From: an uncultured Christensenella sp.
GTDB lineage: Bacteria; Bacillota; Clostridia; Christensenellales; DTU072
Assembly (NCBI GenBank): GCA_949285605.1
Contig: CASDZI010000008.1
Span: forward strand, 1-44,400
Direction of reading: 5' to 3'
DNA length: 44,400 nt
Below are positions 1 through 13,100 of this stretch, piece after piece (positions within the stretch are counted from its first letter, which is position 1; each line of letters starts with the position of its first letter). The notes under the pieces are model-generated. The model saw only the letters and a program-made list of their open reading frames with translations, made no database searches and had not been told where the DNA came from. Both the position numbers and the translations under genes were made by a program.

Positions 1-671
1 AAATCGGCTTTTTCGTCGGCGGGGGTGGGGGATTTGTTTATGACGGCGAGAGTACCCCTGAAGGAATGGACGAAGGAGGCGGCGGGATAAACGGCAAGGG
101 AGGTGCCGCCCACCATCAGAAGGTCGGCGTTTTCGATCTCGTACGAGGTTTTTTCCAAAACTTCGGGGTCGAGGTTTTCGCCGTAAAGGACGACGTCGGG
201 TTTGACCGTGCCGCCGCAGATCGAACAGACGGGCACTCCTTCGGAGGACAGGATATATTCCATAGGATAGAAAGCTCCGCAGGAAAGACAGTAATTTCTC
301 AATGCGCTGCCGTGCAGTTCGAGGACGTTTTTACTTCCCGCTTTCTGATGAAGTCCGTCGATATTCTGCGTGACGACGCATTTTACGACGCCTTTTTTCT
401 CCAGCTCGGCGAGCTTGAGGTGGCAGGCGTTGGGGCGTGCGTCGGGAAAAAGCATTTTGTTTTTGTAAAAATCGTAGAACTTTTCGGGATAACGGTAAAA
501 AAACGGACCGCTGACAATTTCCTCGGGGGAAAAGGAATAATTCTGCGTAAAAATTCCTCTGTCCGAGCGGAAATCGGGGATACCGCTTGCGGTGGAGACC
601 CCTGCTCCGCCGAAAAATACGGCGTGCCGGGCGGAAGACAAAATCTTTTCGAAGGCAGATTTGTCGCTCAT
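1..671 (-). CDS. cobB: NAD-dependent protein deacylase, Sir2 family (partial, C-terminus off the window)
   Basis: Sirtuins remove acetyl or related acyl groups from lysines in the cytoplasm, using NAD+ and releasing nicotinamide. The visible 223 codons begin MSDKSAFEKIL and show the NAD-binding signature GAGVSTASGIPDFRS near residues 22-36, then TQNIDGLHQKAGS with the catalytic region LHGS. Two CxxC pairs follow (CLSC and CSIC) that would hold the structural zinc, then GGTVKPDVVLYGE and the second NAD-binding stretch MVGGTSLAVYPA. The reading frame is still open at base 1, so only the last part of the Rossmann domain is missing. The ATG lies 9 nt after the fhs stop, with AGAGG overlapping that stop as ribosome binding site, so the two genes are probably cotranscribed. 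The family call is secure. The symbol and the acyl group preferred are less so. Confidence 0.9.
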   Translation of the reverse strand, partial: MSDKSAFEKILSSARHAVFFGGAGVSTASGIPDFRSDRGIFTQNYSFSPEEIVSGPFFYRYPEKFYDFYKNKMLFPDARPNACHLKLAELEKKGVVKCVVTQNIDGLHQKAGSKNVLELHGSALRNYCLSCGAFYPMEYILSSEGVPVCSICGGTVKPDVVLYGENLDPEVLEKTSYEIENADLLMVGGTSLAVYPAASFVHSFRGTLAVINKSPTPADEKAD

Positions 672-680
672 TACACGCCT

Positions 681-2327
681 CTACATAAGTCCGTTTACGG
701 TGCCGTCGTCGTCTATGGTCATTTTCATGGCGTTGGGCAGTTTGGAAAGTCCGGGCATAAGGAGCATCTGTCCGCAACGGACGACGATGAATTCCGCCCC
801 CGCTCTGACCATAATTTCCTCCACGTTGAGATTGAAGTTTTCCGGTGCGCCCAAAAGAGAGGGATCGGCGGAAAAAGAGTATTGAGTTTTGGCGATACAA
901 ACGGGGAAAGAACGATATTTTTCGTTCAAAGACGCAAGAGTTTTTTCGGCGTTTTCGGAATAAGTGACCGATTTTGCACCGTAAATTTTCTTGGCGACCG
1001 CTTCGATTTTTTGCTTGACGGAGCAATTATCCTCGTAAGTAAGGGTCAAAGCGGAGGGTTTTTCCATAGCGGAAATTACGGCTTCGGCTAAATTTATGCA
1101 ACCTGCTCCTCCTTTGGAAAATCCTTCGCTGACGGCAAAACCGACGTTTTGTTCTTTGCAGAGTTTTTCCGCGAGGGCGATTTCTTCGGGGGTATCGGTG
1201 GGGAAACGGTTGAGGGCGACTACCACGTTCTGAGAAAATTCCGAACGGAGATTCTTGATGTGGCGGGCGACGTTGGCGAATCCTTTTCTTATCGCTTCTT
1301 CGTCGGGGAGGGTTATTTTGTCGGCAGGGACGCCGGCGTTGTGTTTTATGCTTCTCAAGGTTATCACGAGGACGGTTGCCGAAGGAACGAGCCCGGTTTT
1401 GCGGCATTTGATGTCGAAGAACTTTTCCGCACCCAGCTCGGCGCCGAAGCCGGCTTCGGTGACCGTCACGTCGGAAAGAGCGAGAGCCATACGGGTGGCG
1501 GTGACGGTGTTGCAGCCGTGGGCGATGTTGGCGAAGGGTCCGCCGTGCACTATTGCCGGAGTCCCCTCCAACGTCTGTACGAGGTTGGGGTTCAATGCGT
1601 CTTTGAGCAAAATAGCCAGACTGTCCCGGACTCCGAGGTCGTCGACGGTGATCTCTTTACCCGATTTGTCGTAGCCTATCAGAATATTGCCGAGACGGCG
1701 TTTGAGGTCGGAAAGGGAATCGGCAAGGCAGAGTATAGCCATCATTTCGCTGGCGGCGGTTATGACGAAGCCGTCTCTTCTCGGAACGCCGTTCTTGACT
1801 CCGCCCAAAGCTACGTCGGTAACCCTCAGCGCCCTGTCGTTGAGATCGATACAACGGGTCCAGACCACTTTGTCTATGCCGAGTTCGTTGCCTTGCATTA
1901 TGTGGTTGTCGATGAGAGCACTCAGAAGGTCGTTGGCGTAGGTCACGGCGTGCAGATCTCCGTTGAAATGAAGATTGATGTCGTCCATGGGTGCCACTTG
2001 AGAATATCCCCCTCCGCACGCTCCGCCTTTTATCCCGAACACCGGTCCGAGAGAGGGTTCTCTGAGAGCGAGACAAACCTTTTTTCCCATTTTATGAAAA
2101 GCGTCGGCAAGTCCGATACTGACGGTGGTTTTTCCCTCGCCGAAAGGGGTGGGGTTCATTGCGGTGACGAGAATAAGTCGTCCGGAAGAAGAAGCGGGTC
2201 TCGTTTTTATTTTGGCTTTGTATTTGCCGTAGCAATCGTAGTCCTCTTCCTTAAGTCCCAGTTTTCCCGCAACTTCGGCTATGGGAAGCAAGGAGGCTTC
2301 CCTGGCTATTTCAATATCGCTTTTCAT
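681..2327 (-). CDS. fhs: Formate--tetrahydrofolate ligase
   Basis: This enzyme joins formate to tetrahydrofolate with ATP to give 10-formyltetrahydrofolate, feeding purine synthesis and the methyl branch of the Wood-Ljungdahl pathway in anaerobes. The 548-residue product is close to the usual family length of about 555. The nucleotide-binding loop TPFGEGKTT is at residues 60-68, followed by the strongly conserved REPSLGPVFGIKGGACGGG and QVAPMDDINLHFNGD stretches. AAGGAG sits 7 nt before the ATG. The gene has its own promoter in the gap behind feoB and is followed 9 nt later by the sirtuin gene. No truncation or frameshift is visible. No other Wood-Ljungdahl gene is in the window, so acetogenesis cannot be claimed from this alone. 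Confidence 0.97.
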   Translation of the reverse strand: MKSDIEIAREASLLPIAEVAGKLGLKEEDYDCYGKYKAKIKTRPASSSGRLILVTAMNPTPFGEGKTTVSIGLADAFHKMGKKVCLALREPSLGPVFGIKGGACGGGYSQVAPMDDINLHFNGDLHAVTYANDLLSALIDNHIMQGNELGIDKVVWTRCIDLNDRALRVTDVALGGVKNGVPRRDGFVITAASEMMAILCLADSLSDLKRRLGNILIGYDKSGKEITVDDLGVRDSLAILLKDALNPNLVQTLEGTPAIVHGGPFANIAHGCNTVTATRMALALSDVTVTEAGFGAELGAEKFFDIKCRKTGLVPSATVLVITLRSIKHNAGVPADKITLPDEEAIRKGFANVARHIKNLRSEFSQNVVVALNRFPTDTPEEIALAEKLCKEQNVGFAVSEGFSKGGAGCINLAEAVISAMEKPSALTLTYEDNCSVKQKIEAVAKKIYGAKSVTYSENAEKTLASLNEKYRSFPVCIAKTQYSFSADPSLLGAPENFNLNVEEIMVRAGAEFIVVRCGQMLLMPGLSKLPNAMKMTIDDDGTVNGLM

Positions 2328-2360
2328 AATCGGTCTCCTTATAATTTGCGTAATAATAAA

Positions 2361-2389
2361 ATTATAAAAAAATATCGCCGAATAATCAA
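2361..2389 (-). promoter_or_regulatory. Probable sigma-A promoter of fhs
   Basis: On the minus strand TTGATT (2389-2384) is followed after 17 nt by TATAAT (2366-2361), which leaves a leader of about 25 nt to the fhs ribosome binding site. It lies entirely in the 66-nt gap between the feoB stop and the fhs start. Fhs and the sirtuin gene can therefore be transcribed apart from feoAB. I see no terminator after feoB, so read-through is also possible. Confidence 0.6.
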
Positions 2390-2393
2390 GCGA

Positions 2394-4109
2394 TTACCGA
2401 AAAACCGTTCCGATAAGCAGGGATATTGCGTGGAACGCCGCACAGAAAACGTAAGCGAACAAAAATTGCAACCCTAAACAACGCAGAAATTTCTTGCCGC
2501 CGAGTTCTTTTTTCAGAGCCGAACAGGAGGCGGCGCAGGGCGGACTCAGGAGTATGAACAGGCAGAAGGAAAGAGCGGACGAAGGGGTAAAAAGAGAGGG
2601 GAGGTCGCCTTTGGTTATCACGCCGAGGACGCCGAGAACGGTCTCTTTGCCGGCAAACCCTGCCGCAATAGCGGCGGCGTGCCATTTGTCGGTCAGCCCG
2701 ACAGGATAAAACAGGTACTTTGCCATTTCGCTCGTCACGGCGAGCATACTGTCCTCTATATCGCATTTACGGAACCCAAAATTGTAGTTAATAAGAACCC
2801 AAACGACTATGCTCGCTACAAACACCACGGCACAGGTGCGACGGAAGAAAGAACGGGAAAAGGCGGCGGTTTTTCCCAATACGCCCGACACGGAAGGAAA
2901 TTTTCGTGCGGGAATTTCCATAATGAAATCCTGCATTTTTCTGCCGGGAAGGAGGATGTTCAGGCAGAACACGCAGAATACGCCCGTGACGTAAAGCAGT
3001 GGCAGGGCGAAATAATTTCCCGGGAAGAAGGCGTTGACGAAGGTGGCGAACAAGGGCAGTTTGGCACTGCAAGGCATAAAGTGCAGGGAGCAAAGGCATT
3101 TTTCTCTTTCTGCGTCGTCGGGAATGGTACGGGTGCTTGCGGCGGCGGAAGCGGTGCAGCCGCAGGCGACTATCAGACTTATCGCCGTCCTGCCCGACAG
3201 TCCTGCCGAAGCGAAAGGTCTGTCTGCGAGGAAGGCTATCCTGGCAAGATACCCGCTTTCTTCCAGCAAGGCGAGGAAAAAGAAGGTGATGACGGTCACG
3301 GGAAGGAACTCCGCCACGCTCCCCACGCCCGTCAGGACGCCGTCTCCGATAAGGCTTGCCAAAGACGGGGACAGCCGAGCGGAAAGAAAAGCGTTTATTT
3401 TCGCAAAGAGGTATTCCGTGGCGGCGGAAAAAGCTTTTCCGGCAAGGTCTCCGAGGAAGGAACAGAGGAAAAGCACGGCAAACATTACGGCGAAGAAAAT
3501 CGGAAAAGCGGTATATTTCCCGAGCAGTATGTCGTCCGCTTTTTCGGAAAAAGAGGTTTTCCCGTTACGTTTCACGCAACGGGAAGAGATTTTTTCACAT
3601 TCGGCGTAGCGGGAGGAAGCGTCGGAAGGGAAGATTTTTTCCGAGGGAAGGGGGCGGGAGGAAAAGAGCTCATCGAAGTTTTTGTCTTTTTTAGCGGAAA
3701 TTCGCACTACTTTGCACCCTAAAGAACGGGATAAAGCCTCGCAATCGACGTCGAGTCCGAGTTTTTTCGCTTCGTCGCACATATTGAGAGCCAAGACCGT
3801 GGGTTTACGTTTTTCCAACAGCTGAGTGGTCAGAAAAAGGCTTCTTTCGAGGTATCGGACGTCTGCGACGTTTATGATGAGGTCGACGTTTTCCTTCCGC
3901 AAGAAATCGTCCGCCGCTTTTTCCTCGTTGGAAGGACGGTTGAGGGAATAGATCCCCGGCAGGTCGTAGATATAATCCTCGCCCCTTCGTCCTTCCGCTT
4001 CTTCCACGGTAACTCCCGCCCTGTTTCCCGTGTCGAGATGACTTCCGGTAAGTTTGTTGAAAAGAGTGGTTTTGCCGCAGTTGGGGTTACCGGCGAGGAC
4101 GGCTTTCAA
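2394..4109 (-). CDS. feoB: Ferrous iron transport protein B (FeoB)
   Basis: FeoB is the cytoplasmic-membrane Fe2+ permease with an N-terminal GTPase domain. The G1 loop GNPNCGKTT is at residues 7-15, the G2 threonine is T34 in GVTVEEAEG, G3 is DLPG at 49-52, and G4 is NMCD. After about residue 195 come hydrophobic helices with the Gate-domain signature LEESGYLARIAFLADR, the motif MPCSAKLPL, and a C-terminal helical part. At 571 residues it is shorter than many FeoB proteins but has all main parts. One oddity: the usual GCNVPAIMATR of the first Gate domain reads GCTASAAASTR here, losing the conserved proline. It overlaps feoA by 4 nt (ATGA), which indicates translational coupling. Confidence 0.95.
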   Translation of the reverse strand: MKAVLAGNPNCGKTTLFNKLTGSHLDTGNRAGVTVEEAEGRRGEDYIYDLPGIYSLNRPSNEEKAADDFLRKENVDLIINVADVRYLERSLFLTTQLLEKRKPTVLALNMCDEAKKLGLDVDCEALSRSLGCKVVRISAKKDKNFDELFSSRPLPSEKIFPSDASSRYAECEKISSRCVKRNGKTSFSEKADDILLGKYTAFPIFFAVMFAVLFLCSFLGDLAGKAFSAATEYLFAKINAFLSARLSPSLASLIGDGVLTGVGSVAEFLPVTVITFFFLALLEESGYLARIAFLADRPFASAGLSGRTAISLIVACGCTASAAASTRTIPDDAEREKCLCSLHFMPCSAKLPLFATFVNAFFPGNYFALPLLYVTGVFCVFCLNILLPGRKMQDFIMEIPARKFPSVSGVLGKTAAFSRSFFRRTCAVVFVASIVVWVLINYNFGFRKCDIEDSMLAVTSEMAKYLFYPVGLTDKWHAAAIAAGFAGKETVLGVLGVITKGDLPSLFTPSSALSFCLFILLSPPCAASCSALKKELGGKKFLRCLGLQFLFAYVFCAAFHAISLLIGTVFR

Positions 4110-4327
4110 AATTCCTGTCTCCTGAGATCGATTTTTTCCAGCGTGGAAAGTCTGAAGGCGTAAGAAGTGCCTCTGACGAAAGCTATGACGGGGTTCCCGA
4201 GGGGAGCGGTTTGTCCGAAACGTATTTCGGCGCCTTCGGTAAATCCGAGATTTTCCAGACGTATCCGGAGAGCCTCGTCTTTCGGCAGGGCGGTTACGAT
4301 ATAGCGGCTGTTTTTTCGGTATTTCAT
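4106..4327 (-). CDS. feoA: Ferrous iron transport protein A (FeoA), SH3-like
   Basis: This is a 73-residue cytosolic protein that works with FeoB in Fe2+ uptake. The pattern RIRLENLGFTEGAEIRF followed by the strand-rich PLGNPVIAFVRGTSYAFRL is typical of the FeoA SH3-like fold, and the length is normal for the family. AGGAA lies 4 nt before the ATG. It is the first gene of the feoAB pair and overlaps feoB by 4 nt. I looked for but could not identify a convincing iron-regulator operator upstream. Confidence 0.92.
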   Translation of the reverse strand: MKYRKNSRYIVTALPKDEALRIRLENLGFTEGAEIRFGQTAPLGNPVIAFVRGTSYAFRLSTLEKIDLRRQEF

Positions 4328-4345
4328 TACTTCCTGTTTTGCTAA

Positions 4346-4374
4346 ATTATATGTGAAGAAAAAGGTATTTAGAA
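4346..4374 (-). promoter_or_regulatory. Possible feoAB promoter
   Basis: On the minus strand a perfect TATAAT (4351-4346) lies 18 nt upstream of the feoA ATG. The hexamer 17 nt further upstream is only TTCTAA (4374-4369), a weak -35 match. A weak -35 fits a promoter that needs or is controlled by a regulator, but no operator is recognisable. Confidence 0.4.
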
Positions 4375-4377
4375 AAC

Positions 4378-4418
4378 AAAAAAATACTTCCGCAAAAAAC
4401 GGAAGTACAATTTTTTTT
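4378..4418 (-). terminator. Bidirectional intrinsic terminator
   Basis: A perfect 8-bp stem TACTTCCG/CGGAAGTA (4385-4392 with 4400-4407) encloses a 7-nt loop. Seven A residues on the left (4378-4384) give a T run on the minus strand, and eight T residues lie on the right (4411-4418). It lies between the end of the TIR-methyltransferase gene and the feoA promoter, so its obvious job is to end the minus-strand TIR transcript. Confidence 0.85.
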
Positions 4419-4460
4419 AATATACGATTATCTGAAAAAGTGGAGAGAAAGCTTGTGTAT

Positions 4461-5807
4461 TTATGCGGAGCCGATAGCTATGTATGAGCGTACGGTATAA
4501 TAGAAATCTCGGGAGAAGAAAACGGTTTTCAACTTGTCCAAAGCGTTTTCCAACCATTGAATTTCTTTTTTCAGGAATTCGTTTCCGGGATTTTCGGCAT
4601 ATATGCTTTTTATGCGGTTGAGCCTGAAAGAAAAGCCCATAGTAAACAGCCATTCCTTTTCACGACGGGTTTTATTGATGGTATCGTCTATAGAATAGAG
4701 TAATTCGATGTTTTCATAACCCAATTCGCTCAAATACGGATAAAGCTTTCTGCCGATAATGCGGTCGCTGGATTTAATAACGGCATTAGTACGTTTGATT
4801 ATTTCTTCCGCCAGCGAGTCGTTCGGAAAACAAAGTTTACTCCCGTCGTCGGATTCCCTTATTATTATTTTGCCTCCGGGGTTAAACAGGTCGAAGAGCC
4901 TTAAAAGGAGTAATTTTGGTTTTTGAACATGTTGCAGAATAAAAGCGGCAAAAATAAGATCGAAACCCTTTATGTCGTTTTCCTGCATAATGTTTTTAAT
5001 GGCACAACAAAAATCCGAACTGTTCAGATCAACTTTATAAAAACAAAAACGCGGATCGTTCTTACAGCGTTCTTTAGCGGCGTCCAAGTCGGATTGATTG
5101 TAATCCACACCTATTATTTTTTTGAATTGCGGACGGTTGGCGAAACGGGAATAGGTCACCAACGCATCCGAACACCCTAAATCCAGCACCGTAAGATTGT
5201 TATCGGGCAAAGAAGCCAAAGCTTTATCGATAGCTTCGTTGTCGAATTTTACATATCCGTTTTCCTGCCAATGTAAGCGTTCTTTTTCTCCGAGGATCAT
5301 ACTTGTATAGGTAGAAGCGGTAAAAACGTCGTCGGCGTTAGAGTCGGGTAACAACCCCCATTCCTTAAAGGTTTGACTGAGTTTTCCTTTCAAATCCAGA
5401 TTGAAATCGTTTTTCAATAAATACAGTTTGTTTTGTGGAAAATATACCGATAAATTTTCAATTACGAATCTGGCCATTTCGTTTCCGGAACGCAATGCTT
5501 CGGCAAAGATTTTTTGTGGTGATTCGTTATTCAGAGTGATTGCCGCATAAGGTTTGTTATATTTTTCGGCGTATTCTATTTCGGTAAGAACGGCGTTGCT
5601 TGCAGCCGATTTTTCGCTTAAAAAAACGAACATACCTTTACAACGAGAGTTGCTGAGTTGTCGACGGACTTTCAAATCCCATTCTTCACCGAAACTGATG
5701 GTTTCGTCGAAAACGGTATTGTAACCTCCGATATTCAACACGTCGATATAGTAGCTGATATTATCTTTGTGTGAATAGCTTAAAAATACGTAATTACCGT
5801 CGCTCAT
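4461..5807 (-). CDS. TIR domain - SAM-dependent methyltransferase fusion protein
   Basis: The 448-residue product joins two domains. Residues 5-130 form a TIR domain: box 1 is YVFLSYSHKD (6-15). In KSAASNAVLTEIEYA, E76 aligns with the catalytic glutamate of NAD-cleaving TIR domains such as SARM1. Residues about 175-345 form a class I methyltransferase: motif I is VLDLGCSDA (207-215), the acidic residue after strand 2 is in IIGVDYNQSD, followed by FDLIFAAFILQHV and NPGGKIIIRESD. The C-terminal 100 residues are unassigned. I chose the ATG at 5807 because GGAAGG precedes it and the promoter lies between it and the upstream in-frame ATG at 5906. The gene is monocistronic, with promoter and terminator. 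TIR domains often act in phage defence or signalling, but the substrate of either domain is unknown and no partner gene adjoins it. Confidence 0.85.
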   Translation of the reverse strand: MSDGNYVFLSYSHKDNISYYIDVLNIGGYNTVFDETISFGEEWDLKVRRQLSNSRCKGMFVFLSEKSAASNAVLTEIEYAEKYNKPYAAITLNNESPQKIFAEALRSGNEMARFVIENLSVYFPQNKLYLLKNDFNLDLKGKLSQTFKEWGLLPDSNADDVFTASTYTSMILGEKERLHWQENGYVKFDNEAIDKALASLPDNNLTVLDLGCSDALVTYSRFANRPQFKKIIGVDYNQSDLDAAKERCKNDPRFCFYKVDLNSSDFCCAIKNIMQENDIKGFDLIFAAFILQHVQKPKLLLLRLFDLFNPGGKIIIRESDDGSKLCFPNDSLAEEIIKRTNAVIKSSDRIIGRKLYPYLSELGYENIELLYSIDDTINKTRREKEWLFTMGFSFRLNRIKSIYAENPGNEFLKKEIQWLENALDKLKTVFFSRDFYYTVRSYIAIGSA

Positions 5808-5844
5808 AAAATTCCTTCCGCATAAATAATAAAATCTAATTTGT

Positions 5845-5873
5845 ATTATATTAAAAAAAATAAGAAGTGTCAA
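5845..5873 (-). promoter_or_regulatory. Consensus sigma-A promoter of the TIR-methyltransferase gene
   Basis: On the minus strand TTGACA (5873-5868), exactly 17 nt, then TATAAT (5850-5845): both hexamers are perfect. The predicted start of transcription near 5838 gives a leader of about 30 nt to the ATG at 5807. It also shows that the longer frame beginning at 5906 is not translated as a unit. Confidence 0.85.
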
Positions 5874-5888
5874 CATAAGAAATATGTC

Positions 5889-5916
5889 TTGAAAATAATC
5901 GAACAAGGGTTATTAA
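5889..5916 (+). promoter_or_regulatory. Possible promoter of the TtcA-like gene
   Basis: TTGAAA (5889-5894), 16 nt, TATTAA (5911-5916). It is a moderate match only. It lies back to back with the TIR gene promoter in the 145-nt divergent gap and would give a leader of about 30 nt to the ATG at 5953. Confidence 0.4.
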
Positions 5917-5952
5917 GTTGCCAATAAAAAAAGAGTGAGTTATTATAAAAAT

Positions 5953-6768
5953 ATGAATACGGCAGAGATCGAGAGAAGTCTCATTACTTCTTACAAAAAA
6001 GCTATTTACGCTCCCTTCGTCAAGGGAATAAAAGAGTACCGTCTCATCGAGGACGGAGACAGGATAGCCGTGTGCATTTCCGGCGGAAAGGACAGTATGG
6101 TGATGGCGAAATGCATGCAGGAGCTGAAACGGCACGGAAAAGACAATTTCGACGTGCGTTACCTGGTCATGAACCCGGGCTACAACGAAGCGAACCTTCG
6201 TAAAATTTACGAAAACGCCGAAAAAATGGGTATCCCCGTAGAGGTCTTTGACTCGGATATTTTCAACGTCGCTTACCAAAGCGGCGGCTCGCCCTGTTAT
6301 CTTTGCGCCAGAATGAGAAGGGGCTGCCTGTATTCCAAAGCGAAAGAGCTCGGCTGTAACAAAATAGCCTTGGGACATCACTTCGACGACGTCATCGAAA
6401 CGGTAATGATGAGTATTCTTTACAGCGGACAGATCCGTTCCATGATGCCGAAACTCAAGAGCACGAATTTCGAAGGAATGGAGCTTATCCGACCGCTTTA
6501 CAGGGTAAAGGAACAGGATATAATCAATTTTTCCCGATACATAGGGGTGGAGTTCCTGCGTTGCGCCTGTAAATTCACCGAAAAGGACGAAGGGGCGGGA
6601 GAGGGAAAAAGAGCGGAAATAAAAAGGCTCATAAAAAAGCTGAAGGAAAGCAACCCCAAGGCCGATTACAATATCTTTACCGCCGTCCATAACGTCAACG
6701 TGGACACCCTGGTGGCTTGTCGCAAAAACGGCGTTTTACATTCTTTTTTGGAAACTTACGACGATTAA
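5953..6768 (+). CDS. TtcA-like tRNA 2-thiocytidine synthetase family protein
   Basis: PP-loop ATPases of the TtcA/TilS group activate a tRNA base by adenylation; TtcA then thiolates cytidine 32 using an iron-sulfur cluster. The 271-residue product has the PP-loop SGGKDS at residues 43-48 and the CYLC pair within SPCYLCARMRRG near 110. It also has GHHFDDVIETVMM and a further CAC cysteine cluster near 197, the layout of cluster-binding TtcA proteins. I took the ATG at 5953: GAGTGAG lies upstream at a long but usable spacing. The alternative GTG at 5935 would leave only a dozen nucleotides of leader from the candidate promoter and has no properly spaced ribosome binding site. The precise substrate within the family is not certain. 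A terminator follows directly. Confidence 0.85.
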   Translation: MNTAEIERSLITSYKKAIYAPFVKGIKEYRLIEDGDRIAVCISGGKDSMVMAKCMQELKRHGKDNFDVRYLVMNPGYNEANLRKIYENAEKMGIPVEVFDSDIFNVAYQSGGSPCYLCARMRRGCLYSKAKELGCNKIALGHHFDDVIETVMMSILYSGQIRSMMPKLKSTNFEGMELIRPLYRVKEQDIINFSRYIGVEFLRCACKFTEKDEGAGEGKRAEIKRLIKKLKESNPKADYNIFTAVHNVNVDTLVACRKNGVLHSFLETYDD

Positions 6769-6800
6769 AAAAAGGTAAATTTTTACAAATTTTTAACAAG

Positions 6801-6845
6801 CGGTTTTTTATGGAAAAAACTGTAAAAACCGATTTTTTATTTTTT
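6801..6845 (+). terminator. Intrinsic terminator of the TtcA-like gene
   Basis: The stem CGGTTTTT/AAAAACCG (6801-6808 with 6824-6831) has a 15-nt loop and is followed by two runs of six T separated by one A (6833-6845). It begins 32 nt after the stop codon. The stem is AT-rich apart from its three GC base pairs, but the T tract is strong. Confidence 0.7.
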
Positions 6846-7022
6846 AAGTATTTTTGAATAAAATTGAATAATTTCATTAGTTCGGAAACTGCTCGTATTT
6901 GAAGTTTTTTGGCAGAAAAGGAAGGATGCGACGGTTTTAAGGTGAATTTTTCCCCGTGACGGGAGAGGGTCCGCCGTCGCAAAGGTACGTCGGGCGTGAA
7001 TAATTATATTATATATATAAAA
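6846..7022. other. Intergenic region upstream of the giant gene, with nested inverted repeats
   Basis: I see no gene here. The stretch is AT-rich at both ends with a GC-richer island at about 6921-6990. The island holds an outer inverted repeat GCGACGG/CCGTCGC (6928-6934 with 6974-6980) and inside it a tight one, CCCGT-G-ACGGG (6953-6963). These could be protein-binding sites or, if transcribed, a folded RNA. There is no evidence to choose. Confidence 0.4.
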
Positions 7023-7050
7023 CGGGTATTGACACGGGTCCGCAGCGGGT
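7023..7050 (+). repeat. Three CGGGT direct repeats on the giant-gene promoter
   Basis: CGGGT occurs at 7023-7027, 7035-7039 and 7046-7050, that is at 12- and 11-nt steps. The copies lie just before the -35 box, just after it, and just before the -10 box. Spacing near one helical turn on one face of the DNA is the usual arrangement for cooperative regulator binding; the regulator is unknown. Confidence 0.5.
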
Positions 7051-7057
7051 GTATAAT
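7029..7057 (+). promoter_or_regulatory. Consensus sigma-A promoter of the giant lipoprotein gene
   Basis: TTGACA (7029-7034), exactly 17 nt, then TATAAT (7052-7057): a perfect match in both boxes and spacing. Transcription would start near 7064, giving a leader of about 60 nt that contains a hairpin and the GGAG ribosome binding site at 7115-7118. Confidence 0.88.
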
Positions 7058-7075
7058 GTGTGTGTATCGCAAACA

Positions 7076-7098
7076 AAAAGGGTGAAGTACGCCCTTTT
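7076..7098 (+). promoter_or_regulatory. Leader hairpin of the giant gene
   Basis: AAAAGGG (7076-7082) pairs with CCCTTTT (7092-7098) around a 9-nt loop, close to the predicted 5' end of the transcript. The T run is part of the stem, so it is a poor terminator. A 5'-end stem may protect the very long mRNA from decay, but that is inference. Confidence 0.35.
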
Positions 7099-7124
7099 GC
7101 AAGTCGAAACGATCGGAGTGTGTT

Positions 7125-7196
7125 ATGAAGACTAAAATCGCAAAACTATTTATTTTTCTGCTGTGCGTGGCGCTGATGTTCAGTATCGCCGCATGC
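7125..7196 (+). other. Lipoprotein signal peptide of the giant protein
   Basis: The N-terminus has lysines at 2, 4 and 7, then a hydrophobic core (LFIFLLCVALMF), and the lipobox IAAC with the lipidated cysteine at residue 24. Mature residues 25-45 are polar and acidic, including six aspartates in a row (38-43), a typical lipoprotein tether. Confidence 0.88.
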
Positions 7197-10100
7197 TCGG
7201 AGAGGGTAAGCAACGTTGACGAAGGGCCGTCCGGGGACGACGACGACGATGATGTTGTCGAAAAAATCGTCAACCTTACCAACAGCGAGGCCAGAAACCA
7301 CATAATCAAAGCGGTCAACAACATCGACACCACTCCTGTCGACGATCCCGAATGGTTCAATATAGATTTTGCGGTACGTTTCACATTCCATAACTACGAA
7401 AAATCGGGAGAGGTTTATACCGACGTTCCGGCGACGAGCATAGACTACAACATCGTCGTCAAAGGCGCTTTCAATCTGAAGGATAACTCTGCCAGCGCCG
7501 TTTTCATAGAGATCAAAGACGTCTATTCCAACCAGGTCAAGGTAGGCGTTTACTATTACGATTCCACGCTTTATCTCGACATAGGCGGGAAAAAATATTA
7601 TACCGAACAGCTCAATATGAGTCAGCTGGGAGGTTTGCTGTGGAAGTTGCTGGAGTCTACCGGAATAGACATAGTGCCTTTTATAGGTAACGCCCTCGGC
7701 GGACAGCTCGATATAGACAATACCGACATCACCGGTCTTATTTCCATTGCGTGGGGTATTCTTTTCAACAAAGAAGCCAACCTTACGTATACAGCCGACG
7801 AAAAGACGCAATATATCAATCAATATCTCAATATTGATATGATTATGGGAATGATTATGGAAGGGCGTATCAATATCGGCGGATTCATCGATATTGAAAT
7901 TTCCTGGGAGGCCTTCGGATTGCCTGATCTCGATCCGTTGCTCAGGCAGGTGCTCGGCTTCGGACTTCAGGACATCATCGACAAAGAATGGCCCTCGATG
8001 ACCTTCGAACTTTCTGCGATAACTCAGAAAGAGCCGGTAAAGCAGGCCGACGGAACCACTAAGGAAGATTACGTTTTCAACGGACTCGGCATAGACATCA
8101 CCTGCGAAACCGGCGAGTACGACGTCGATATAGACGTGACGCCTTTCAAAATGGGCGTCGGCAACACCAATACTGTACAAATGGACCTTGCCGGATACAA
8201 TTTCGGGTCGGCGGGGAAAGACAGCGTTTACGAAGAAGGCAGCCTGACCAATCTGGAACTCAATCTTCAGCTCGGAGTGGACAGCGAAGAAGACGAGGAA
8301 CTGACTATTTCCAGTATCCTCGGCAATATGCTCGGAGACCTCGGGGCGGTGGGGCAGATACCGCTGAAGATATCGGGCGGTTCCCATTACGTATTCGACG
8401 TTAAAGTGGCGGCAAGCATCGACTTGTTCGACAACGCCAACAACAAAGCTCAAGTCACGTTCAAATATAACGACGCCGACGTGTTTTCATTGTATCTTGC
8501 GCCCGATCTGCAGTTACAACAGGGCAGTTCCGTCCTTTACAGCACGCTTTACATAGACACCTCCAATCTGACCAGCGGAGGGACGCAGCTCATTCCGCAG
8601 CTGAAACTTCCCAATCTCAATCTTACGCAATTACTCGCCGGAACGCCGGAATTGCCGGGTCTTTTGGGCGATTACATGAAATATCTCGACCCGTATTACG
8701 CCAACACCACCACGGCAACCAGGCCGAGTAACGCCGACGGCGAAGAGGGAGGCGGGCTGGATATTATGGCTCTCCTCAACGTGCTTCTGACTTCGGACGG
8801 CGCGGGAGGATTCAAATATCTGACCTTCCCCACCGAAGAAAGTTCGATTTTCTCTTTGCATTTCGACAACGACGGTATCAATTCCCTTCTCGGTATGTTC
8901 ATGGAAGGGGTGAGCATAGGGGTGCACGGGATAGAGCTGAGCGTGGATTTCGACGATCCGTTCGATTCCGTCCGTCTTAACCTCAACGTCACCGAAGGAC
9001 TGACCGTCCACGCCGGCATAGGCAGGGACAACGCCGACGGAACGTACTCGACGGGTCTTTCCTATTTCGTGGAACCCGATTTCGAAATGGAGGCCATAGG
9101 TATCGATTCCGACGGAAACGTCACCGAAAACGCCGAGGCGTTGCGGGGCGAATACAAGTCTATGAGCGGTTCTCTCGATTACGGGGCGACCATTACGGGC
9201 AACTTTACCATAGGCTCTACCGGCGGATCGGAAATAGATCTGTCGGCGGTGGTGGGCGCTTTGGTGGAAAACGTCTTCCTGACCCTCGGAATAGAGACGA
9301 GCAGCGCTCTTTCGGTGGAATACGAATTGCAGGCGGGCGTCAACCTCCTCGATTTCTCGCAGGTAGGCGTTATACTCGATTTGTATCTTCTCGAGGACGG
9401 GACGCGTAAAGGATATCCTTTCCTTTCGATATATTATTCCGGCAACGAAGACACTCTGTTCATCAATCCCCAGGTAAACGAAGAAGAGGATATGGTGACT
9501 CAGCTTCACGGCAAATTGCCCATAACCAAAATCGTGGACGGAGCAATCCCGAAAATTTCCATACCTAACCTGGGGCTTAAGGACGTATTAAGCGGAATGG
9601 GGCTGGATCTTTCCGGGTTGGAAGGAATTCTGGGCGGAATGAACGCCGATTTCGCCTTCAACGTGGACGAAGAAACCGGCGAAGTGGACGCAGGGACCGA
9701 CGGAAATAATATCCTCGACATTGCCGCAGGAGCGCTCGACGGTATCGTGGTGAACGACGGAGTGCTGGAAGTTCTCATAAACGCCGAAGTTTTGGGCGTG
9801 CTGTTACAGCTTATGAATATGGACCTTACCGGGGATCTTCCCAAGGTCAACGGTAACCTCGCCATTCATCTCGGCACCGAGATACTGAGAGATCCCGAAG
9901 GCAGACCTCTTTACGAACAGACCGTAACGGATGAAGAAGGGAACAAGACGACCTATATATTCTCCATAAATTACGATGACGAAGGCGACCTCTTTTTACT
10001 TGACAAAGAAGGCAACGTCGTCAGCGACAATTGGCCCGTGGACGTTTCCAAAGCAATCCCCCATCTTAAAGACAGAGAACTTATAAAAGCGCATCTCGGC

Positions 10101-13100
10101 ATACTGGACAGCACCGGGAAAGAAATCGAAGCGTTTTATCTCGATCTCAAATTACTGGATACCGTTACGGTCAAGAAAGGTTCCGATCTTACCTTTGCCG
10201 GCGGCGGACACAGTTCGGCGTCGTACACTTCGCTCACCGACTGGGTGGCGTCGCTTGTCATATCCGTCAACGTGGAACTGGAACTTTCGGTGGACGCAAC
10301 CGACGCCGAAACCGTGCCCGATAAGCTCAATCAGGCCCTCGGCAAAATGCTGGAGGACCTCCTCGGCACCGACGCTGCCAGCGGAGCGTTTATCGATCAG
10401 CTTATCAGCAGTCTTGCCATTAAATTCAAAAACAATTATTTCTACGAAAACGGTTTGCACGTGGGTATAGCCGTGAAAGGCAACATCGACATCAACGATT
10501 TGTTCGCAAGCAATATAGCCGTGGTTATTTTCGACAAGACCATTCTCGACAGTAACGGTTATACCGCCGCAGACAACAGGACTTACGCCGTTATCGCAGG
10601 CGTTTACGTGGAAGACGGCAAAGGATACATCGACCTTTCCTATCTCGGCATCAATCCCCTTGCCATAACCGACCTCGAAGGTACTTACGTCGGCGCAATC
10701 GCTCTTTTGTGGAATAGTATGTATAACGATACGAGCGACCTCAACATCGACTTTTCCGACAATTATCAGTCCAAACGGGATCTGATGGATTTCGTTATGA
10801 AGGAGACCGTCTTTAATTACTTCTTCGAGAATTTCTATATTCAGAACGGTTACCGTAACTCTTATCCCGAAACGGCGTATAAATATCTCCTGCACGACGA
10901 CGGATATATTTATCTGTATTATCTGACGAGCTTCTCCAACTATTTCGACTACACGTCCCGTTCCAACGATATTTATCTGAAAACCGAAGGACGTTATTAT
11001 ACCGTTAAGGACGGGGTTATCAGCATATTTAATTCCAACGGAGATCTCTTTACCTCCATAGAACCCTTTATGCTTCCCGACGGGCCTTTGCGTATAAGCG
11101 TGGCTCAACTCGAAGAAGAGGCCAGAGAACAACGCAGGGAAGAAGCGGAAAGCACCGGTCAGGAACCGCCTAAGGAAATAGATTTTACCGACCTTCTGGA
11201 GAGCGAGGCGTACTCTTATTACGGCGATATTGTGACTAAATACGCCGGCATTTGGCAGGCGACCATAGCGCAGCCCAACCTCGACGGTTCGGTGAAAGCG
11301 CTTATGGATGCCGGACTTGCCGAAACGATAGCCGAAATTAAAAATTACGAAAGGGCGGTTATCGAATATTACGACAGGACCTCTCTTGAGTCTTCGGTGG
11401 CAGGCGAACTGATAAATTATATAAGAAAAGAATATTCTTCGAAATATGCCAACGCAACCAGCGTGGCGATAAGGAACTCCGAGGAATTCAAGACCCTTTT
11501 CCCGCAATGGGTGGAAGACAGAATTGTTTCCGAAGTCAATAAGGCTTATGAGTCGAGAGGCGTCAGCGTGGAAGAATTGCAGGCGGTCACTTATTTCCGC
11601 ATGAGAACGGTCAAGGTGTTCCGTGACAGTCTGGTCATTCCCGGCGAGACCGCAACCCAAGCCGTCAACGTGGCGAGCATGAGCGCTTTAAGGTATATTC
11701 TCACCCCCGCTCTGAACGCCGCTTACCGGCCGTATGAAATAAATCCCTCCAACGCCGCCATCGAAAATCCCAACCGCATAGCGTTGCAGGTCATCTACAA
11801 TTCCGGAAAAGTCTCCCTGGAACTCGGGAACACCGTTATTACGGGCGTTCTCAATATGCTCGGTTTCGGAATGGTGACGGAATTCATTACCATAGACATT
11901 ATAAAACTGGAAGTGGACACCAATAACGGGTTGGAACTCGAAGTAACGGTGGGACTGGACAGCGTTTATACGATAGGTCTCGGGCTCAATCAGCTCAGGG
12001 CGAGCGTCGATCCCGACAAGCGTGCCGATTACGCCGTGACCGTTAACAAAGACAACTTCGCTCCCGAAAGCACTACCGACGGAGTGCCCGATGCGGTACA
12101 CGTGGAAGTGGGCGGATCGCTGTTTATCAAGAACAAACTCGGAGAAAGCGGAATAAAACTCAGTAACGACTACAATTTTACCGAAACCGTAGCCGCTATC
12201 TTCAATAACTCTGTTTTCAATAAATCCGATCTCGACGCAATATATGCGCAGATAGAAGAAGAAAACAAAGACGTGACCATGGCCGAAAAAGCCAAAAAAG
12301 TCGCAGCCTGGAAACGTCTTGCTTCAATGGAACTTACCGAGGCGGAAAGGGAAGAACTCGATATACGTTACGGTTGGGCGGTTAAGGACATAGCCGCAAA
12401 CGTGGACGAGATAGAAGAGTGGTACGATGCGGTGCCCGGCGACGACACCCACTACGCTCTGGCGTGGGATTACCTGGTGGAAAATTCCATTATGGTGGAC
12501 CTCAACGGACTCGGAATGGATATTCTGGCTCAATTTTTGGGAGAAATGGACGACAGCCTCGATTTTAACATCGACGTATGGCTGGACTTCTCCAATATTT
12601 ACCGCAGCGTTCTCAAAGTGGAAATAGTCCGCAGTCTTATCGGAGAAGAGAAAGAAAGCGCTCTGACTTTCATTTACGACGGCAGCGACGTGGACGTCGG
12701 CGCTTCCAGTTTTGCCGGCGACGTTTACGTTTCCACCGACATATTCAGCATCGGCGACGTCGTTTTGCGTAACGTGACGGGCGTTATAAACGGTATTATG
12801 GAAGTTTTCGACTCCACCTTCATAACCGCTCTCGGCAACGCCATAGACAAATTCATAGGGATTGCGCCAAACACCGCTTCCAACGCTCCGGTATCCGGGA
12901 AAGGCTCCGACACCGTTTACAATGCGGCGGCTCTTGCGGATGCGGATTTAGCCACTTATCTCGATATTATGTTCAACGACGGCAGTCTCGGAATTGCCGT
13001 CACCAAAGCCACCCTCATCAGCGTAATTGCTCTTGCGGGAGTGGATCTGACCGAAGCGTTGCGGAATATCGATTTCGGAGCGGACATTTCGGTAGGATTC

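Follow-up and report, generated by a model that had tools for sequence, protein, structure and literature searches.

A mobile gene family joining a TIR domain to a methyltransferase-fold module, with a probable role in bacterial immunity

In the window, i.e., the whole stretch of 44,400 nucleotides analyzed here from an uncultured Christensenella sp., a gene was identified whose product joins an N-terminal TIR domain to a SAM-dependent methyltransferase (MTase) module. Its role is probably in bacterial immunity, and the best reading, with about an even chance of being correct, is a mobile TIR enzyme of the immune type whose regulatory module has an MTase fold. Cleavage of NAD+ at E76 of the TIR domain would either deplete NAD or yield a signal of the ADP-ribose type, and the MTase-fold module would serve as the regulatory half, binding SAM or SAH plus a further ligand and turning the effector on during infection. 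In many relatives, a TIR signal would probably be read by a membrane protein featuring a Rossmann region and a RyR-like end, for which association with the family was observed. TIR and HEPN, both of them major toxic effectors in the immunity of bacteria, appear on the one MTase module, and this shared module is suggested to represent an unrecognised sensing or signal-tailoring module. Should the MTase modify the signal, NAD-derived immune messengers would gain methylation as a further kind of chemistry, whereas an MTase sensing SAM or a methyl acceptor would represent a new infection sensor. The family comprises 80 distinct members and is mobile and single-gene in size, and is thus directly testable by expression. 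Features of the locus are listed below in window coordinates.

4461–5807, minus strand: TIR-methyltransferase gene, 448 aa, window protein P0001
5526–5789, minus strand: TIR_2 domain, aa 7–94 (Pfam 31.1 bits, curated cut-off 28)
5582–5580, minus strand: catalytic-type E76, aligned with the SARM1 catalytic Glu
5265–5288, minus strand: ExxRLxxQ helix, aa 174–181, first helix of the MTase module, also in PDB 3mgg
4824–5204, minus strand: class I SAM methyltransferase core, aa 202–328 (Methyltransf_31 42 bits, cut-off 27; Foldseek 3mgg)
4464–4775, minus strand: conserved C-terminal part of the MTase module, aa 345–448 (R349, GR352–353, F392), from sequence conservation and the model
5845–5873, minus strand: sigma-70-type promoter match TTGACA-17-TATAAT, 12/12, pattern match only
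4384–4408, minus strand: terminator-like hairpin and T-run 3' of the TIR-MTase gene, pattern match only
2394–4330, minus strand: feoB and feoA, flanking the insertion on the left, also in the sister species
5935–6768, plus strand: PP-loop (ATP_bind_3) protein on the right flank, divergently oriented, with 91% identity to the sister species
4383–5940, no strand: segment of 1,558 bp with gene, promoter and terminator, 40 bp instead in sister species G006 (L183 7762–7801)

The gene starts with ATG at 5807–5805, and GGAAGGA is located at 5819–5813. Its layout is monocistronic, since feoA, which follows in the same orientation, lies past the terminator and the upstream PP-loop ATPase gene is divergent. 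The sequence-only reading had described two intact domains encoded by a gene standing alone between a perfect-consensus promoter and a terminator. Both domains are real, as TIR_2 and Methyltransf_31 score above their Pfam cut-offs, the layout at this locus agrees with a solitary gene, and promoter and terminator were recovered as pattern matches. Searching window positions 1–9000 against Rfam yielded no match. Placement in a defence island, on which the earlier reading had left the matter to be checked, was not observed: the surrounding genes are housekeeping genes (feoAB, formate-THF ligase, PP-loop ATPase), and defence-model matches were few among 193 proteins neighbouring family members. 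The missing defence island counts against the best reading, as does the absence of any TIR-MTase from the phage, IMG/VR and plasmid records searched, in which all plasmid matches were distant methyltransferases, among them a Haladaptatus protein whose N-terminus differs.

The family profile matched tir-1, SARM1, AbTIR and Cat1 in the PDB, with E-values between 1.9e-17 and 1.5e-11 for tir-1, SARM1 and AbTIR. In the alignment, E76 falls in the column of the SARM1 WVHKE glutamate, E642. A glutamate at this position was found in 72 of 72 TIR-bearing members, i.e., those among the 80 featuring a TIR domain and more than 90 aligned N-terminal residues; the remaining eight comprise four HEPN forms, two proteins without TIR and two truncated ones. 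The residue pointed out earlier is thus invariant, and homologues lacking it, which were looked for as the case speaking against an active TIR enzyme, did not occur among the 72. By homology, the TIR domain of the window protein is predicted to cleave NAD+ at E76.

Judged from its recurrence, the fusion is not a chance event and represents a real family, because a search for the same two-domain order recovered full-length TIR-MTase proteins in at least 29 of the 396 genomes sampled from the order; this count is a lower bound, with no more than four candidates scored in each genome. Profile A1, built from eight members, matched 205 of the 396 genomes, mostly through other TIR proteins. Among 398 genomes sampled across the phylum (E 1e-20), no full-length TIR-MTase match was obtained beyond the genome of origin, and a sample of 295 other Actinomycetota genomes returned a single match, a stand-alone methyltransferase; the family is therefore rare outside the order. 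Within the genus, occurrence is patchy, as none of the nine other genomes contained a P0001 match. Profile A2, representing the window's subfamily, located 50 loci in named genomes (four with another N-terminus), and their hosts are gut Clostridia and Bacilli, Lachnospiraceae (Claveliimonas, Mediterraneibacter), Erysipelotrichaceae and one Spirochaetia genome. Beyond the order, TIR-MTase proteins thus occur elsewhere in Bacillota and in Spirochaetota. At E < 1e-50, 93 members were collected, of which 80 remained once duplicates had been removed. The architecture had been called uncommon, which holds, and it is absent from PADLOC-DB: version 2.0.0 gave only two weak partial Aga_TIR matches to P0001 (E 0.013 and 0.019). 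In an actinobacterial MAG, a protein featuring a TIR domain and the C-terminus of the family was also noted (L157, 497–2128); the region around motif I of its MTase looks degenerate.

The TIR-MTase gene is mobile, as deduced from two empty sites in the sister species G006 (85–87% nucleotide identity), one of them with a 314-bp target duplication at the occupied counterpart. At the window locus, one G006 contig aligns with positions 1–4382 and 5941–11996, leaving a clean empty site of 40 bp in place of the 1,558-bp segment. The second TIR-MTase gene of the genome (L057, on G000:C1) is also missing from G006; here, the insert of 2,313 bp lies between 314-bp direct repeats (L057 8051–8364 and 10678–10991) that are single in G006. 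This arrangement resembles a long duplication of the target by which the target gene was not disrupted, an insertion type described for restriction-modification genes in PMC3031569. Long target duplication as a general rule was rejected: among 72 loci tested, only L057 carries a long one, two other loci feature target repeats of 56–57 bp, and the window copy has no long flanking repeat like that of L057. The window gene is flanked by two collinear exact inverted repeats, examined as a potential transposon signature: 4410–4424/5847–5861 (15 nt) and 4458–4469/5817–5828 (12 nt), with a pair score equal to the maximum of 500 shuffles; across 31 other members such repeats were not consistent, and its right flank has no further copy in the genome. 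An ORF of 228 aa in the L057 insert (8269–8955, minus strand; FWKKVGDYTKHELELALE) is cut at the repeat and appears DUF4062/TIR-like by eye; Pfam returned nothing for it.

The predicted model of P0001 (32 rows, mean pLDDT 89.7) comprises a complete MTase half and an alpha/beta half that resembles a TIR domain, their mutual placement being uncertain (pTM 0.65). Foldseek ranked the Methanosarcina methyltransferase 3mgg first (E 1.3e-19), followed by the small-molecule methyltransferases BC2162, JHAMT and OxaG. The Methanosarcina mazei protein resembles most of the C-terminal module (profile E 1e-22, ExxRLxxQ and GRxxYxLL) but is a stand-alone chain of 276 aa without TIR or HEPN. Since both the ExxRLxxQ helix, which is invariant, and the GRxxY/LL element also occur in 3mgg, the apparent linker and the C-terminal 100 residues both belong to the MTase. 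Treating the latter as a separate domain is accordingly not upheld, as the structural comparison assigns them to the cap/C-terminal part of a 3MGG-type MTase. Motif I of the window protein reads DLGCSDALV; D209, G211 and D235 are present, as are H293 and DDG320–322. The earlier statement that motif I is present holds for D209 and G211, but the final Gly of the canonical GxGxG is replaced by Ala. Throughout the family, 75 of 80 members have an intact SAM-site signature, which comprises D209/G211, acid 235 and H293. Broken motif I and loss of H293 were recorded in the other five (L071, L077, L078, L079, L093), four of which also lost acid 235. All five kept the TIR glutamate, so the TIR is retained where methyl transfer is not. 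Distances between TIR domains and between MTase modules correlate (Mantel r 0.785 for 74 members, with none of 999 permutations as high), and a few re-pairings between TIR groups and MTase groups occurred. An archaeal relative of the module on the Haladaptatus halobius plasmid NZ_CP085340.1 (L168, 5680–6876) carries a different N-terminus of about 110 aa that looks DUF4062-like by eye, a reading to which Pfam gives no support.

In four relatives, the MTase module follows a helical domain of about 150 aa: Evansella tamaricis (L116), a Bacteroidales MAG (L118), a Micrococcales MAG (L145) and a Glaciihabitans MAG (L127). R113 and H118 are invariant in all four and form an Rx4H motif, in line with the Rx4-6H pattern. 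For the L127 N-terminus (model pLDDT 87.2), VIA matches with Z of at least 6 were mostly HEPN proteins, namely 2hsb (Z 9.1, rmsd 2.9, 110 aligned residues), Csm6 (8.4–6.3, top 8.4–8.0), AbiV (6.4) and HEPN-MNT (6.0), whereby Z values below about 13 are weak on their own for helical bundles. The RC3H2 ROQ domain 4z31 (Z 7.1) was an exception; 8ka6 (Z 5.2) and matches below 5 look unrelated. Foldseek alone gave no significant HEPN match for this N-terminus, and Pfam HEPN models stayed below threshold on the four relatives, which cluster in the MTase tree with modest support (84/86). Based on motif and model, these TIR-less proteins carry a putative HEPN RNase-type domain. One module combined with either TIR or HEPN is as expected of a sensor joinable to different toxic effectors, and this effector swap together with the pseudo-methyltransferases favours a sensor or regulatory role of the MTase half.

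A membrane-anchored protein of 669–958 aa with a GFG Rossmann motif adjoins the TIR-MTase gene at several loci (L060/L109, L117, L120, L130, L142, L147, L148), the first being that of the G036 orthologue, which is 72% identical to the window protein. Most aligned rows of these membrane proteins end in EHxRW...H, as seen by eye. According to PMC13232231, this is the pattern of RyR ligand residues, and RyR-domain proteins bind or degrade cADPR isomers. Based on this pattern and that source, the TIR-MTase-linked membrane proteins are considered to carry putative RyR-like ends. The Pfam RyR model was sub-threshold on the membrane family of 725–734 aa (E 0.616 for G020) and above cut-off only in the G035 homologue (40% identity) of the 947-aa protein, the second G036 membrane neighbour besides one of 734 aa; searching the PDB with profile A12 retrieved no RyR or Trk-type chain. 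The membrane family is encoded in 64 of the 396 order genomes: 21 of the 29 TIR-MTase genomes listed, 34 of 176 other TIR-profile-positive genomes and 9 of 191 without such a match. Co-occurrence with TIR-MTase thus amounts to 21 genomes compared to 13.4 expected (permutation within families, p 0.00075), although family f20 shows the opposite (1 of 6 genomes, 2.67 expected). A TIR gene was located near the membrane protein in 6 of 20 fetched regions, of which 8–20 kb were read. The weak link in f20 and the usual lack of adjacency count against the best reading. The genome of origin encodes one such membrane protein, on the 8.9-kb contig C47, which harbors no TIR gene; its location on another contig means that the window gene itself stands alone. 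A region of about 15 kb in another genome (L233, G149:C3:138000–157900) combines a TIR-MTase gene, a second TIR gene, a RyR-domain protein above the Pfam cut-off and a RyR-like membrane protein.

No neighbour gene is common to the entire family, and enzyme partners are specific to clades. In the window's clade (nine rows, tree support 100/100), a RimK-like ATP-grasp gene is located directly downstream in seven, mostly with a 4-nt overlap (L125 9332–10213, also L110, L111, L112, L113, L115 and L114); L114/L088 represents an MTase and ATP-grasp pair without TIR. The window gene and its G036 orthologue lack the ATP-grasp gene, and as both are nested inside the ATP-grasp-bearing clade, their phylogenetic position suggests a loss. 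In another clade, a GNAT gene lies directly downstream at five of five loci (L056/L058/L061/L098/L099), and a different GNAT is encoded upstream in three of three loci of the L077/L078/L079 clade. The expectation of a one-gene system therefore holds for the layout in the window; it fails for relatives in which genes for ATP-grasp or GNAT enzymes or for RyR-like membrane proteins are coupled or adjacent.

Real chemistry is favoured by SAM sites that look intact and by the coupled genes for ATP-grasp and GNAT enzymes; both count against the best reading insofar as they would point to catalysis instead of sensing. Accordingly, tailoring of the signal is tentatively entertained as an alternative: an ADP-ribose derivative made by the TIR would be methylated by the MTase, processed further by ATP-grasp or GNAT enzymes in some clades, and read by the RyR-like membrane protein. 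The SAM site retained in 75 of 80 members, the ATP-grasp coupling in seven of nine and the GNAT coupling in five of five loci, the grouping with small-molecule MTases (3mgg, BC2162, JHAMT, OxaG) and the neighbouring membrane proteins with RyR-like ends all agree with this alternative. However, five members lost the SAM-site signature, HEPN-MTases do not make a nucleotide signal, the window gene and its 72% orthologue have no ATP-grasp gene, and a methylated ADPR signal was not found in the literature searched. A more speculative form, to which a rather low probability is assigned, regards the family as one-polypeptide second-messenger factories, in which the TIR would produce the ADP-ribose derivative, the MTase a methyl cap, and coupled ATP-grasp or GNAT enzymes of some clades would add an amino acid or acetyl group for RyR-like membrane readers, resulting in a diversified, private-channel Thoeris.

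The same partner enzymes could also belong to metabolism or natural-product synthesis, with the MTase and an ATP-grasp or GNAT enzyme making a small molecule and the TIR acting in a regulatory or nicotinamide-handling, non-immune role. Besides these partners, the TIR-less MTase and ATP-grasp pair and the housekeeping neighbours fit such a function, which is nevertheless unlikely given the replacement of TIR by HEPN, the presence/absence between sister species at two sites and the scattering of the family over phyla. That the gene is a selfish addiction or toxin-type element, kept by mobility rather than by protection of its host, is rated as quite unlikely. Its single-gene cassette with clean insertion would suit this explanation, and so would the long target duplication, of a kind that PMC3031569 reports for restriction-modification genes; yet a conserved antitoxin-like partner is missing, and the copy in the window is solitary and preceded by a strong promoter match. 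The likeness to restriction-modification genes is confined to the L057 insert between direct repeats, whereas TIR-MTase is not a DNA methyltransferase and the window copy has no such repeat. A restriction-like mark, by which the MTase would label DNA, RNA or protein as self or non-self, is hardly credible: relatives show distant mad2 (MADS) matches, but P0001 has none at E up to 1 and its best structural matches are small-molecule MTases. A DNA/RNA-modifying activity was likewise rejected, with no DNA-methylase family among the nine Pfam matches of P0001.

The regulated immune-type TIR enzyme favoured here was compared with known systems. Like Thoeris, P0001 features a TIR with catalytic Glu and possibly a signal-plus-receptor logic. 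ThsB_TIR of Pfam narrowly exceeded its cut-off (21.3 bits against 21.2), and the PADLOC ThsB model gave no match at E up to 1. Unlike Thoeris, the protein has a C-terminal MTase, the putative receptors are RyR-like membrane proteins, and no ThsA (SIR2-SLOG or Macro) is encoded beside the window gene or was present among the listed defence-family matches of the 193 neighbour proteins, one list of which covers the 25 commonest. With the NAD hydrolases SARM1, tir-1 and AbTIR, it shares profile matches and the glutamate aligned to SARM1. The regulatory half of SARM1 consists of ARM/SAM-motif domains, whereas that of the window protein would be an MTase fold. Cat1 (CARF-TIR; described in PMC12162218) and other TIR-sensor fusions likewise combine TIR with a ligand-binding regulatory domain (profile match 9mud, 1.5e-11); in the window protein, by contrast, the TIR is N-terminal and its partner an MTase fold, and no CRISPR context was found at the locus. 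Among titles and abstract beginnings of the open literature, with subscription papers outside this scope, no paper on a TIR-methyltransferase fusion was found, and the term 'methyl' is absent from the TIR survey PMC7075850 and the gut TIR paper PMC9092222. The TIR-MTase family is thus apparently undescribed so far.

The 1.7-Mb genome of origin contains three more TIR genes within longer ORFs (G000:C1:2821–3141, C15:31587–31892 and C3:66957–67289), and an MTase module was seen in none of the three. Most of the window is filled by a single open reading frame (7125–41099, plus strand; 11,324 aa), the N-terminus of which resembles that of a lipoprotein; its first 1.9 kb shows 93% protein identity in sister species G006.
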